Assembly: GCA_008729055.1 (NCBI GenBank)
Contig: SDUX01000002.1
Span: 6,363,485 to 6,427,484, forward strand
Direction: 5' to 3'
Origin: Pyropia haitanensis
Taxonomy: Eukaryota; Rhodophyta; Bangiophyceae; Bangiales; Bangiaceae
DNA length: 64,000 nt
Shown here: positions 6,083-22,919 of the stretch, in pieces
How positions within the stretch are numbered: the stretch's first letter is position 1
How the letters are laid out: each line of letters opens with the position of its first letter
Translations under genes and position numbers: made by a program
Notes under the pieces: generated by a model
The model's database searches: none
The model's input: only the letters and a program-made list of their open reading frames with translations
What the model was told of the DNA's origin: nothing

Positions 6083-6163
6083 GCACCTTTGGTCTAGTGG
6101 TAGAATACGTGCTTGCCACGCACGAGACCCGGGTTCGATTGGGCGGATCTCCCGGAAGGCGCA
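6083..6163 (+). tRNA. tRNA-Gly(GCC) with a 10-base insertion at the T loop
   Basis: The sequence follows a plant-type tRNA-Gly(GCC). The acceptor strand GCACCTT is 6083-6089 and the D arm contains GTCTAGTGGTAGAA. The anticodon stem CGTGC/GCACG encloses the loop TTGCCAC (anticodon GCC). The T stem CCGGG is 6129-6133 and the T loop TTCGATT is 6134-6140. Ten extra bases (GGGCGGATCT, 6141-6150) then precede the 3' T-stem strand CCCGG, which pairs perfectly. The 3' acceptor strand AAGGCGC pairs with one A-C mismatch, and the discriminator is A6163. Removing the ten bases gives a canonical 71-nt molecule. The insert may be an ectopic intron; the alternative is a pseudogene. The second tRNA gene in this window (22822-22919) has an insert at the same place. 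Confidence 0.75.
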
Positions 6164-10486: not shown

Positions 10487-11479
10487 CCCCGCCTGACTGC
10501 TGGCAACTGGCCAGGGGAAGGGGTGAAGGGGGGAGGGAGGAAGGGGAGGGGGCAGAGGGGTGCGAAGCGGGGGGGGGGAACAGAGAAAGACGTGAACCCT
10601 TGCACAGGGTGCTGAAGGGGGATGAGCCGCAGCAGGCGACTACACAAGGCGGCGTATCGCCAAGCGCAGCGTCTGGTTCTACCCACCGGCAGTGACGTCG
10701 AGGCCGGCCACGAGGCCGCGCATGACCGCTGCGGAGAGGGAGGGGAGTCCCGGCGGCTCGGTTCTGACGCACGGGCGAGGCGCGGGGCCGACGGCGGGGC
10801 CGCAGTGGGTTCTGGCCTAGCAAATCGGGCAGTGTGCGGTGCACGGTGTTGACCTCGGGGTGCCACTTTTGCCCGACGACACCCTGCGCGGCGATCTATT
10901 CCCGCCAAAAGTGGAGCGAGAGGCAAGGGCAGGAATTGGCCCCTTTTCTGCGAGGGGTGTGATCATGTAAATGGTTCACAGCAGTCAATATTGGAAGTAG
11001 CTTCCACACGCCCGCAAGTGCACTATGACTCGCTTCTCGGGGAGAGGACGATGCACAGCAGGTGCAAGCAGAGGCTGTCGCGGTGGGGGGGGGCCCTCCA
11101 CGTGCTGGCCGAGTACCGCTGCAAGGGAGGGGGAACCCTACACGCCTCGGCCACCAAAGTCCTGCGTGTAGTGCGGTGTGCTGTCTTGACGGGCCGGCGC
11201 TGCACGTCGCGGCCTCGACGGGCACGGCGACCACTGCGAGCCAGCTGCGTCCGGTCCGTTCTCCGCCGCGGCAGCCCCTCGGCCAGTCCGCACCGCTTGC
11301 GGGCGCTTGTTCCCGTCGCGGCGGTCCCGCCCGCTGCCGCCGCACGGGGTCCCCAGCGCCGGTGTGCCCCCCTCGCGCCTCTCGCTCCCTCCCTCTCTCC
11401 GCGGACACCGCCTCGGCGGCGGGCGGAGGTTGCCGGGCGTGGCGCCAGCGGCGGTGCCGCCCCGGCCGCGGCCGCCACG
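10487..11479. other. Divergent intergenic region (CTP synthase / beta-oxidation enzyme)
   Basis: A 1-kb spacer between two divergently transcribed genes, expected to contain both promoters. I see no clear TATA box. The frame upstream of the ATG at 11480 stays open for 163 codons but reads Arg/Pro/Ala-rich sequence and is treated as leader. Confidence 0.4.
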
Positions 11480-14400
11480 ATGGGCGCCAGCTACACCATC
11501 ACCACCGCGGTGCGGCCCGACGGCGTCGCGGTGGTGACGTTTGCCAACCCGCCGGTCAACGCGCTGGCGACGGCCGTCCAGCGGGCGCTGGGCGCTGAGC
11601 TCGCCCGCCTCGCCGCCACCCCGTCGGTCCGCGGGGCGGTGCTGTACGGGGATGCGGCGGGGGGCTTTTTTTCGGGCGGCGCGGACATTGCCGAGTTTGC
11701 GTCGATCGGGTCGGGCGGCGCGGCGGACCCGTTTGCCGACCCGGCAACGACGGCGGTGTACGGGGTGGCCGAGACGGGCCGCCTGCCCGTCGTGGCCGCG
11801 GTCGGGGGGGTGTGCTTTGGCGGCGGCCTGGAGCTGGCGCTCGCGTGTGCCGCCCGCGTCGCGACGCCGGCGGCGTCGTTTGGGCTGCCCGAGCTCAAGC
11901 TGGGCATCATCCCGGGGCTTGGCGGCACGCAGCGGCTGCCGCGGCTGATTGGGTTTGAGCCCGCCCTCCGCGCGATACTCCACTCGTCGGTGCTGCCCGC
12001 GGCCAAGGCCGCCTCGGCGGGGTTGGTGGACGTGCTGCTGCCACCGGGGGAGGGGCCGGGTGCGCTCGTGGATGCCGCCGCGGGGGTGGCGCTGGAGATG
12101 GCGGCCGGCCGCCGCCGGCGGGTGGTGCCCCTCGAGGAGACCTCCCGGCTGGGCTCCCTCGCCGCGTGCCAGGCGGTGGCCGCCAAGCTCCGCGCCACCG
12201 ACGTGGCGCGCCTGTCCAAGGGCGGCGTGCTGCCACAGTACGAGGCCGCCGTGGCGGTGGCGCTGGAGGGCGTCGCGGCGGGCGGCCAGGCGGGGCTCGC
12301 CGCCGAGGCGGCCGCGTTTGCCAAGCTGGTGGCGTCGCCCACCTCCAAGGCGCTCGTGCACTTTTTTTTCGCCTCCCGCGGCGCGTCCAAGCTGCCGCCG
12401 GGCATGGCCGGCGTGCCCGCCGCCCGCGCGCCGCGACGGCTGGCCGTCATTGGTGGGGGGCTGATGGGCGCGGGCATCGCGACAGCGCTGCTGGAGAGCG
12501 GCGCGACGGTGGTCATCAAGGAGATCAATGCGGGCGCGGCGGCGGCGGCGCGGGAGCGGGTGGCCAAGAACCTGGGCGCCCGCGGCGCGGCCGCGCTCGC
12601 CCGCCTGTCGGTGACGACCACGTACGACGCGGCCACGTTTGGGGGCCTGGAGATGGTCATTGAGGCGGCGCTGGAGAATGTCAAGCTCAAGCAGGCCATC
12701 TTTGTGGAGCTCGAGCGGGTCACCCCGGCGGCGTGCGTGCTCGCCACCAACACGTCGACGCTCAACCTGGACATTATTGGTGCGGCGGTGCCCGCCGCGC
12801 ACGCCGCGGGGCGCGTGGTGGGCGCGCACTTTTTCGCGCCTGCCCACCGGATGCCGCTGCTGGAGGTGGTCCGCGCCGACGCAACGGCGCCCGCGGTGCT
12901 CGCATCGGTCCTCGCGCTGGGCAAGAAGATGCGCAAGACGGCGGTGGTGGTGGGCAACTGCCCGGGCTTTGCGGTGAACCGGATGTTCTTCCCGCAGGGC
13001 AACGTGGCCCACTTTTTGGTCACCGAGTGCGGGGTGGACCCGTACGAGCTGGACGCGGCGTGCGAGGCGTTTGGGCTGCCCATGGGGCCGTTCCGGCTGC
13101 AGGACTTTGTCGGCCTGGACATTACGGTGGCCGTTGGGGGCACGTTTGGGGCGGCGTTTGCGGACCGCGCGTACCGCGCCAACTTTGTGCCGGCCATGAT
13201 CGAGGCGGGGAAGCTCGGCCGCAAGTCGGGGTCGGGCTTTTATACCTACCCGCCGTCGGCGCCGCGGGCGCCCGGCACGCCAGACAAGTCAGTCGTTGCC
13301 AAGTTTCTCGCGCCCGCCGCGGCGGACGCGCCGCCAGTTTACCCTCGCGGCCGGGCGCCGCTGTCGCCGGCCGACATGGTGGACTTGACGCTGCTGCCGT
13401 GTGTCAACGAGGCGTGCCGGCTGCTGGAGGAGGAGGTGGCGTCCTCCCCTGGGGACCTGGACGTCGCGTCTGTGCTGGGCATGGCCTTTCCCGCCCACCG
13501 CGGGGGCCTACTACACTGGGCCATCACTGCGCACGGCGGGCCAGCTGGCATCCTGGCCCGCCTGCGTACGCTTGACGGCCTGACGGGTCACCGTTGCGCG
13601 CTGCTCAAGCCGTCGTTTGCGCTGCTGCGGGCGGCGGCGGCTGGGTCTGGCAGCCTGGCCCGCCCGCCACGGCCCGCCCGCACGCCCGGTGCGCCAGACG
13701 ACATTGTCATTGTTGCGGCTGCCCGCACGGCGGTGGGGCGTGCGGGGCGTGGGGGTTTCCGCAATACCAGCGCGGACAACCTGCTCGCGCCTGTCCTGGC
13801 AGACCTCCTCCGCCGCACGCAGCTGTCCCCCGCCGACGTTGGCGACGTCGTCATGGGCACCGTCCTCCCCCGCGGCGACTCGGGGGCGGTCCAGACGCGG
13901 GTGGCGGCCATCCTGGCGGGCCTCCCTGAGATGGTGCCGGTGCGGACGGCCAACCGGCTGTGCTCGTCGGGCCTCCAGGCGATTGCCGACGCGGCTGCGG
14001 CGGTCGCGCGGGGGGACCACGCGGTGGCCATTGCCGGGGGGTACGAGTCGATGAGCGAGAACGCGTTTACCAACAAGTCGCTGGTGCCTAACCCCAAGGT
14101 GCGGGGCAATCCGACCGCGGCCAGCTGCTACGTGTCGATGGGCCAGACGTCGGAGAATGTGGCCAGCCGCTACGGTGTCGGCCGCGTGGAGCAAGACGTG
14201 GTGGCGGTGGTGAGCCACGCCCGCGCCGCCGCGGCGATGCTGTCCGGCCGCCAGTCGGGGGAGATTGTGCCCGTGACGACGCGCGTTAAGCCGTTGCCCG
14301 CCAAGGGCGCGGCGCCAACCCCCAAGGGCACCCCCCCTGCGTGGGAGACCGTGACCGTCGCCCGCGACGAGGGCGTCCGCGTTGGCGTGACGCTCGCGCA

Positions 14401-14956
14401 GCTGTCGACGCTGCGGCCGGCCTTTTCCAAGGCCGGCACCACCACCGCGGGCAACTCGTCGCAGGTGTCGGATGGCGCGGCGGGGGTGGTGCTGATGCGC
14501 CGCTCCGAGGCCCACACCCGTGGCCTCCCCGTGCTGGGCTGCTTCCGCGCGTACGCGGTGGCGGGCGTGGACCCGTCGGTCATGGGCATTGGCCCCGCCG
14601 TCGCCATCCCCGCGGTGCTGGAAAAGGCGGGCGTGCTGCTGTCGGCGGTGGACCTCATTGAGCTCAACGAGGCGTTTGGGAGCCAGGCGCACTACGTGGC
14701 GCAGCAGCTGGGCCTCAACGCGGACATTGTGAATGTGAATGGGGGTGCCATTGCGATTGGCCACCCGCTGGGCATGACGGGCGCGCGGCAGACCGTGTCA
14801 CTGTTGGCCGAGCTCGGCCGCCGCGGCGGGCGGTACGGGCTGGTGAGCATGTGCATTGGCACGGGGATGGGGGCGGCCGCGCTGTACGAGGTCAACTCGG
14901 ACGCACCAGCGGCGGCGGGGATGGGCGGGCGTGCGGTGGTCAATGGCAAGCTTTGA
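11480..14956 (+). CDS. Fused enoyl-CoA hydratase / 3-hydroxyacyl-CoA dehydrogenase / 3-ketoacyl-CoA thiolase
   Basis: One uninterrupted frame of 1158 codons encodes three consecutive fatty-acid beta-oxidation activities. Residues 1-200 are a crotonase domain with catalytic Glu118 (GGGLELALA) and Glu138 (PELKLGIIPGLGG), 20 residues apart as in enoyl-CoA hydratase. Residues about 320-620 are the dehydrogenase: NAD motif GGGLMGAG at 325-332 and catalytic His450 in AHFFAPAHRMPLLE. Residues about 740-1145 are a complete thiolase with nucleophile Cys828 (RLCSSGLQA), His1095 (GHPLGMTGAR) and Cys1125 (CIGTGMG). Hydratase-dehydrogenase fusions are normal for peroxisomal MFP and bacterial FadB, but thiolase is normally a separate chain. 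The start was chosen at the Kozak-like gccgccacgATGG. The protein ends GKL, only a weak resemblance to a peroxisomal PTS1, and I find no PTS2, so location is uncertain. Confidence 0.93.
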   Translation: MGASYTITTAVRPDGVAVVTFANPPVNALATAVQRALGAELARLAATPSVRGAVLYGDAAGGFFSGGADIAEFASIGSGGAADPFADPATTAVYGVAETGRLPVVAAVGGVCFGGGLELALACAARVATPAASFGLPELKLGIIPGLGGTQRLPRLIGFEPALRAILHSSVLPAAKAASAGLVDVLLPPGEGPGALVDAAAGVALEMAAGRRRRVVPLEETSRLGSLAACQAVAAKLRATDVARLSKGGVLPQYEAAVAVALEGVAAGGQAGLAAEAAAFAKLVASPTSKALVHFFFASRGASKLPPGMAGVPAARAPRRLAVIGGGLMGAGIATALLESGATVVIKEINAGAAAAARERVAKNLGARGAAALARLSVTTTYDAATFGGLEMVIEAALENVKLKQAIFVELERVTPAACVLATNTSTLNLDIIGAAVPAAHAAGRVVGAHFFAPAHRMPLLEVVRADATAPAVLASVLALGKKMRKTAVVVGNCPGFAVNRMFFPQGNVAHFLVTECGVDPYELDAACEAFGLPMGPFRLQDFVGLDITVAVGGTFGAAFADRAYRANFVPAMIEAGKLGRKSGSGFYTYPPSAPRAPGTPDKSVVAKFLAPAAADAPPVYPRGRAPLSPADMVDLTLLPCVNEACRLLEEEVASSPGDLDVASVLGMAFPAHRGGLLHWAITAHGGPAGILARLRTLDGLTGHRCALLKPSFALLRAAAAGSGSLARPPRPARTPGAPDDIVIVAAARTAVGRAGRGGFRNTSADNLLAPVLADLLRRTQLSPADVGDVVMGTVLPRGDSGAVQTRVAAILAGLPEMVPVRTANRLCSSGLQAIADAAAAVARGDHAVAIAGGYESMSENAFTNKSLVPNPKVRGNPTAASCYVSMGQTSENVASRYGVGRVEQDVVAVVSHARAAAAMLSGRQSGEIVPVTTRVKPLPAKGAAPTPKGTPPAWETVTVARDEGVRVGVTLAQLSTLRPAFSKAGTTTAGNSSQVSDGAAGVVLMRRSEAHTRGLPVLGCFRAYAVAGVDPSVMGIGPAVAIPAVLEKAGVLLSAVDLIELNEAFGSQAHYVAQQLGLNADIVNVNGGAIAIGHPLGMTGARQTVSLLAELGRRGGRYGLVSMCIGTGMGAAALYEVNSDAPAAAGMGGRAVVNGKL

Positions 14957-22813: not shown

Positions 22814-22819
22814 AAAAAA
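22814..22819 (-). terminator. RNA polymerase III terminator of tRNA-Met
   Basis: Six T residues on the minus strand begin three bases after the discriminator base, the usual Pol III stop signal. Its presence supports the tRNA gene being active. Confidence 0.75.
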
Positions 22820-22821
22820 TT

Positions 22822-22919
22822 TGCCTCCGGCGGGGAGATCGAGGGGCTCGAACCCGCGACCTTCAGATAGCTGAGTTATTCATATGAGACTGACGCTCTG
22901 CCAACTGAGCCACAGAGAC
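22822..22919 (-). tRNA. tRNA-Met(CAT), elongator type, with two insertions
   Basis: Reading the minus strand from 22919: the acceptor strand GTCTCTG pairs fully with CGGAGGC (22829-22823), allowing two G-U wobbles. The D arm is GCTC/GAGC. The anticodon stem TCAGT/TCTGA encloses CTCATAA. A 14-base intron (TGAATAACTCAGCT, 22882-22869) lies between positions 37 and 38, the canonical eukaryotic intron site. The T stem GCGGG (22857-22853) and T loop TTCGAGC are followed by 11 extra bases (CCCTCGATCTC, 22845-22835) before the pairing strand CCCGC. The discriminator is A22822. With both inserts removed the cloverleaf is canonical. Because every stem is preserved, the second insert looks like an ectopic intron and not decay. 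Confidence 0.85.

Follow-up and report, generated by a model that had tools for sequence, protein, structure and literature searches.

Introns in the T arm of tRNA genes are on record from the red-algal lineage. In Cyanidioschyzon merolae, itself a red alga, T-arm tRNA introns are reported (PMC9602550, PMC3978253), and the accessible text describes introns of the D, anticodon and T arms, several of them per gene, together with bulge-helix-bulge (BHB)-type motifs; the order of their excision was examined by RT-PCR in work of 2007 and 2013 (PMC3978253, PMC4090602, PMC9602550). The introns and junctions of this alga are scattered (the T-loop intron of tRNA-Gly(CCC), for example, lies at 55/56), and it has permuted genes as well. 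In the nucleomorph of Guillardia theta, of red-algal lineage, inserts of 3–24 nt at non-canonical places include T-arm inserts whose excision was confirmed by RT-PCR, and three introns interrupt the gene for elongator tRNA-Met (Kawach et al. 2005, PMC4090602); many introns of this nucleomorph are described as having no defined BHB (PMC3978253). A further precedent is archaeal: the crenarchaeon Thermofilum pendens uses the 59/60 joint that is also found here, in its case as a permutation junction listed without a central helix (PMC3978253).

Here we describe T-loop inserts in the tRNA genes of Pyropia haitanensis, starting from a stretch of 64,000 nt (the window; contig SDUX01000002.1) and extending the search to the eukaryotic assembly of 53 Mb in 136 contigs. 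Whereas the introns and junctions of Cyanidioschyzon are scattered, the T-loop inserts of Pyropia all fit 59/60, and isodecoders with identical exons differ in both the presence and the sequence of the intron. Two genes of the window, an elongator tRNA-Met and a tRNA-Gly, are interrupted in this way (Table 1). Elsewhere in the window, one open frame (10853–14953, plus strand) encodes enoyl-CoA hydratase, 3-hydroxyacyl-CoA dehydrogenase and thiolase domains (beta-oxidation) as a fusion; the protein is 91% identical to a Pyropia yezoensis protein and 52–55% identical to named Porphyridium, Agarophyton and Chondrus proteins, and other red algae have named proteins with the same set of domains.

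Table 1. Interrupted tRNA genes of the window, their inserts, and the D-loop inserts read elsewhere in the genome (window positions unless a contig is given)
Feature	Location	Strand	Basis
Elongator tRNA-Met(CAT) gene with two inserts (37/38 and T loop 59/60)	22822-22919	-	acceptor 7/7, T stem 5/5
tRNA-Met T-loop insert, 11 nt, CCCCTCGATCT at 59/60	22836-22846	-	sequence reading
tRNA-Met 37/38 intron, 14 nt, TGAATAACTCAGCT	22869-22882	-	sequence reading
T6 run, putative Pol III terminator of tRNA-Met	22814-22819	-	sequence reading
tRNA-Gly(GCC) gene with T-loop insert	6083-6163 (= C11:6369567-6369647)	+	exons letter-identical to uninterrupted C3:601997-602067
tRNA-Gly T-loop insert, 10 nt, TGGGCGGATC at 59/60	6140-6149	+	sequence reading
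D-loop inserts placeable one letter before the 3' D-stem strand	L037, L039, L042, L028, L088, L100 on C9, C10, C4, C3, C7, C120		

The minus strand from 22919 to 22822 can be drawn as a full cloverleaf with the anticodon CAT, in which the acceptor stem is GTCTCTG/CGGAGGC (G-U counted as a pair) and the T stem GCGGG/CCCGC. The letters GGTTCGAG are followed by 11 extra letters and then by C60 and the 3' strand of the T stem. This insert can be written in two ways, as CCCTCGATCTC at 60/61 or as CCCCTCGATCT at 59/60, the mature RNA being identical; we adopted the 59/60 placing because it is permitted by the Gly and Asn genes, which have plain relatives. The preliminary description had read the gene as a tRNA-Met with a normal 14-base intron at 37/38 and 11 extra bases at the insert site of tRNA-Gly, with intact stems and a Pol III terminator, and the letters bear this out: the intron occupies 22869–22882, both T-loop inserts are placed at 59/60, and the fully paired acceptor and T stems are followed just downstream by a T6 run. 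Searching with the window gene as query found three further elongator Met genes, so that the T-loop insert is present in 4/4, at the same place, as CGAACAGATCT in both copies on C4 and as AAAGCGGTTA in the copy on C8; their 37/38 introns differ from copy to copy in sequence and length. A plain D-arm pattern (at most 3 mismatches) matched at 24 places, as compared with 16 for the reversed control, and the Met D arm occurs in exactly four of these 24, which are the same four Met genes.

Standard predictors pass over these genes. ARAGORN reported no tRNA genes in the whole window, and Rfam found no tRNA there at its gathering score; in a lax Rfam search the Met gene scored 25.9 bits, short of the cut-off of 29, and the window Gly gene was absent from the matches. 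The Rfam match to the Met gene spans model positions 8–63 only, as might be expected of a degenerate pseudogene; we rejected that reading, the acceptor strand being found behind the insert and three relatives being built alike. Across the genome the Rfam tRNA model places 7 of the 39 T-loop insert sites above its cut-off, and ARAGORN recovered none of the first six such loci submitted to it.

The tRNA-Gly and tRNA-Asn genes serve as controls, as they include uninterrupted relatives with the same exons. A Gly exon query found ten genes, four of plain length and six that are longer by 10–11 nt. Five of the interrupted genes have 71-nt exons that are letter-identical to those of the plain gene C3:601997-602067, and these five carry five different inserts (CAGTCGAGTC, TGGGCGGATC, AGTTCGGATG, AAACACGAATG and GGCTGCGAAAG); the remaining three plain genes diverge from the query by 3–6%. 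For Asn, two plain genes were found, together with one gene whose sole difference is an insert of 11 nt in the T loop, and another that differs only by one D-loop and one T-loop insert. An uninterrupted relative therefore defines the insert exactly in five Gly and two Asn genes. The sixth interrupted Gly gene (L087; C7:1142295-1142376) has two exon changes, one of which creates an Asp anticodon (GTC); it retains a Gly-type body, with C at position 8, and a T-loop insert that still pairs 4/4.

The survey of the assembly yielded T-loop inserts at 39 places in 11 isoacceptor groups, 33 of the inserts being distinct and their lengths ranging from 10 to 44 nt. All 39 are compatible with the single site 59/60, and in all 39 the parts of the gene stand in normal, unpermuted order. 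The insert is present at 15/15 Asp places, in 2/2 Glu genes (28 and 30 nt), and in 6/10 Gly and 4/4 elongator Met genes; one further insert was read in Val(TAC) and two in Gln(TTG). A search with a class-II D-arm pattern gave 41 matches (21 for the reversed control), and of the eight newly read places with at most two mismatches, seven are tRNA genes, namely four Ser(CGA), one Ser(AGA), one Ser(GCT) and one Leu(TAA), all with a T-loop insert; three other matches proved to be Ser(AGA) and Ser(GCT) genes of the plain type. Exon and D-arm pattern searches found no plain gene for Asp (0/15), Glu (0/2) or elongator Met (0/4). Seven groups (Met, Asp, Glu, Val(TAC), Gln(TTG), Ser(CGA) and Leu(TAA)) have no plain relative among the genes read, and in these the joint is deduced from the seven-letter T loop.

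It had been asked in the preliminary description whether most other tRNA genes lack such inserts. An uninterrupted T loop was read in 43 of 82 tRNA genes, which is about an even split in a sample that is non-exhaustive and biased: plain genes are more readily picked up by the Rfam search, and no gene came to light for several isoacceptors, among them Pro, Phe, His and initiator Met. The reading did not extend to two low-scoring Rfam matches (C11:3713800 and C7:3829920) or to 30 class-II places with three mismatches, and one pattern match (L113) was discarded, there being no tRNA at that place. C76 and C83, two small contigs with bacterial genes and CCA-encoding tRNAs, are probable assembly contamination; their tRNAs were left out of all counts because they are located among bacterial genes. 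We also observed five near-identical repeats (L076 and L078–L081, on C6, C9, C10, C11 and C59) that start with TGGTCGGTAGCCCAGTCGGTAAAGC and have a tRNA-like head without a tRNA body; they are perhaps tRNA-derived.

The interrupted genes are well preserved. The T stem is paired 5/5 in all 32 distinct insert-bearing genes tested, and the acceptor stem has at least 6/7 pairs in 29 of them; the three exceptions are two Asp genes without a 5' strand (L097, L104) and the Gly-type gene with the Asp anticodon, whose acceptor stem was missed by the search anchor. A run of at least four T follows within 60 nt in 32/32 and within 40 nt in 31/32, as compared with 4.5–6% of random stretches drawn from the GC-rich window, a rough control since the flanks of genes may be richer in A+T than the window. 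The intact stems and terminators of these genes are more than chance would give. The 33rd insert, in the second Gln(TTG) gene, has the same build as the other 32 and a TTTT.

Eight of the Asp places are complete at the 5' end, whilst 7/15 (7/39 overall) lack a normal 5' acceptor strand, and function cannot be expected of these seven. In two Asp genes (L098, L099), acceptor and anticodon stem changes occur, as judged by eye, in compensating pairs, which suggests selection on the product. Some tRNA-Asp copies are spaced about 7.5 kb apart on C3:1575084-1597703, with others on C120 and C40 (L093, L095–L097, L101–L103 in all), and several of this set share a sequence in place of the 5' acceptor strand; the arrangement looks like tandem units or a tRNA-abutting element. 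Separately, the inserts start directly after GGTTCRAN (as in the gene at 6083–6163), such that the B box core is kept and its last letters are often lost; the altered final letters in many copies might lower transcription.

The preliminary description had pointed to GATCT(C), common to the 3' side of both window inserts. This holds for Met and Gly in the window, but most other copies are without it, and GATCT was rejected as a splicing signal on that ground; the signal lies instead in a pairing of intron letters -6 to -3 with exon letters 54–57 (TTCG or TTCA). In the window Gly gene, the insert letters CGGA (6144–6147) are able to pair with T54 T55 C56 G57 (6134–6137). With the joint set uniformly at 59/60, the mean over the 33 distinct inserts is 3.39 of 4 pairs, 16 being perfect and 30 having at least three, as compared with a mean of 1.83 (sd 0.16, maximum 2.42 in 20000) when the intron letters are shuffled. 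This sets the inserts apart from the many Guillardia introns without a defined BHB. Two pairs only are possible in 3/33 (one Met, the Ser(GCT) and one Ser(CGA)). Other spacings give means of 1.15–2.42, and the best is that of the BHB motif, which has a 4-bp central helix and 3-nt bulges in the description accessible in PMC3978253; the next spacing (3), with a mean of 2.42, is also above the shuffles, so the register is not perfectly sharp.

The rule was first noticed by eye in 16 inserts and was fixed in writing before 16 more were fetched. For these later inserts the mean is 3.12, against 1.91 on shuffling (sd 0.22, maximum 2.75), with at least three pairs in 14/16, and the last insert read, the 33rd, pairs 4/4. 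As inserts inside one isoacceptor may be related, each isoacceptor was also weighted once (32 inserts), giving 3.47 against 1.77 (sd 0.22). The paired letters covary: an A at exon 57 is accompanied by T at intron -6 in 11/15 and a G by C in 11/18, so that 57:-6 is a Watson-Crick pair in 22/33 (permutation p 0.00015). Minimum-energy folds reproduce the exact 4-bp helix and 3-nt bulge, as read by eye, in 11/32 and lack it in 21/32. The latter include the window Gly gene, for which the T arm folded alone favours a different pairing; the window Met gene has 3/4 pairs in the strict register and uses a shifted 5-bp helix in its minimum-energy fold. The pairing of the T-loop inserts has the bulge-helix-bulge spacing, in a relaxed form.

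Inserts in the other two arms can be described in similar terms. With the joint set one letter ahead of the 3' D-stem strand, six D-loop inserts (three Lys, Arg(TCG), Asn and Asp) pair at 3.83 of 4 on average, with 1.89 after shuffling. We regard this as weaker evidence because the placing was partly chosen: the joint was set by us, Lys allows another placing and no plain relative of Arg(TCG) was read, so the test is partly circular. The Trp (L047, L048) and Arg(ACG) (L046, L054) inserts in the D arm were excluded, as the boundary of their D stem is uncertain. Pairing is weaker in six 37/38 introns, half of which come from related Met genes, at 2.5 of 4 as compared with 1.12 (L106, L107, L041 and L060 were excluded from this test). 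The Lys(CTT) genes comprise two plain copies, one with a 37/38 intron and three with a D-loop insert. Both 37/38 and 59/60 follow the sixth of seven loop letters; the place of 59/60 in the T stem-loop is thus that of 37/38 in the anticodon stem-loop, and the T arm may on this ground be regarded as a second anticodon-arm-like substrate. Ordinary eukaryotic 37/38 introns are alike in place relative to their stem-loop, and differ from the inserts of the red alga in that the latter sit in the T arm and pair better (3.39 against 2.5 of 4 for the six 37/38 introns tested in the same genome). The contact at -3 of the T-loop inserts resembles the anticodon-intron pair of 37/38 introns.

Candidate enzymes are encoded in the genome. 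PF01974 has two matches, of which L057 has Sen2 as its best PDB match and L056, with Tyr, His and Lys at the motif places, we take to be of the Sen34 kind; judged by sequence, Sen2/Sen34-type splicing endonuclease genes are present. An RtcB-type ligase is predicted on C3 (E 1.3e-118). The endonuclease of the Cyanidioschyzon type is a three-subunit enzyme that includes Sen54 and lacks Sen15. In the Pyropia precursor, intron letters -6 to -3 would pair with exon letters 54–57, adding four base pairs to the T stem. The 3' side would carry a bulge of three letters, N60 and two from the intron, while A58-N59 and the 5' letters of the intron would stay unpaired on the 5' side, giving a relaxed bulge-helix-bulge. 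The Sen2/Sen34 endonuclease would then cut at both ends of the intron, directly behind 59 and directly in front of 60, and the exons would be joined into a normal seven-letter T loop by a ligase, probably RtcB; the six D-loop inserts would be handled in the same way, with a joint that precedes the 3' D-stem strand by one letter.

The inserts are, in our judgement, very probably true introns in functional nuclear tRNA genes that are removed by the tRNA-splicing endonuclease; we infer that the genes are transcribed and that the inserts are excised and the exons ligated at a joint placed to within one letter. Were the inserts instead kept in the mature RNA, they would define a tRNA class with T loops of at least 17 letters. 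Intact stems and terminators would suit such molecules too, excision being deduced; however, the inserts vary from 10 to 44 nt and differ in sequence between genes whose Gly and Asn exons are identical, their constrained letters pair with U54-U55-C56-R57, and uninterrupted isodecoders exist. The folded T loop requires U54-U55-C56-R57 to be free. Retention is accordingly a very improbable account. That the majority of the interrupted copies are pseudogenes hit by random insertions would agree with the missing 5' acceptor strand at 7/15 Asp places and with the Gly body bearing an Asp anticodon (L087), but deserves scarcely any credence in view of the single site, T stems and terminators perfect in 32/32, exons that are conserved and compensated, and a pairing rule that held on later copies. 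Moreover, dead interrupted genes would leave the cell without tRNA-Asp, tRNA-Glu and elongator tRNA-Met, because no plain gene for any of these was found, unless such genes were missed.

It is also conceivable, if unlikely, that the inserts are introns for whose excision a different enzyme, not the Sen endonuclease, is responsible. A Sen enzyme of the yeast type measures the distance to 37/38, so that a cut in the T loop is not expected, and the Guillardia introns without a defined BHB point the same way (both from the accessible text of PMC3978253). Against this, the pairing has the BHB spacing described for the Sen endonuclease and fits the D-loop inserts too, and BHB motifs are reported, in the text available to us, for the T- and D-introns of Cyanidioschyzon. 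Removal by the Sen endonuclease is the reading that we prefer.

How the introns came to differ between otherwise identical genes is a separate matter. Plain and differently interrupted copies coexist, and a repeated, recent gain of introns at 59/60 of otherwise identical isodecoder genes is a possibility that we put forward tentatively and with some doubt. On such a history the T arm would be a second anticodon-like landing and splicing site, with one rule for three arms. Alternatively, old introns may drift whilst the exons are held identical by gene conversion or selection.

The preliminary description had proposed a systematic class of T-loop introns from two genes. The class is supported by 39 places in 11 groups, with one site, intact T stems and terminators, though it is not unprecedented, given the accounts from Cyanidioschyzon merolae and the Guillardia theta nucleomorph in the portions of the literature available. 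In literature of which coverage was partial, we found no report of nuclear tRNA introns in the Bangiales; in the accessible part of the Neoporphyra haitanensis genome paper, 'tRNA' occurs only within 'aminoacyl-tRNA biosynthesis', at both of its occurrences. The kind of intron is therefore known; what appears new is the use of one site, 59/60, the size of the gene set involved and the occurrence, in a seaweed, of identical isodecoders that are polymorphic for the intron.

Since such genes readily escape ARAGORN and Rfam, red-algal tRNA inventories may be undercounts. The isodecoders that combine the same exons with different introns are natural test constructs for the recognition of non-canonical sites by Sen, and the same sets bear on the question of tRNA intron origin. 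Eukaryotic tRNA splicing is commonly pictured as a ruler fixed on 37/38. A multicellular red alga nevertheless appears to pass its whole Asp, Glu and elongator Met families, as found here, through a T-loop intron, whose letters are able to pair with U54-U55-C56 and so would block the normal elbow until the intron is removed.
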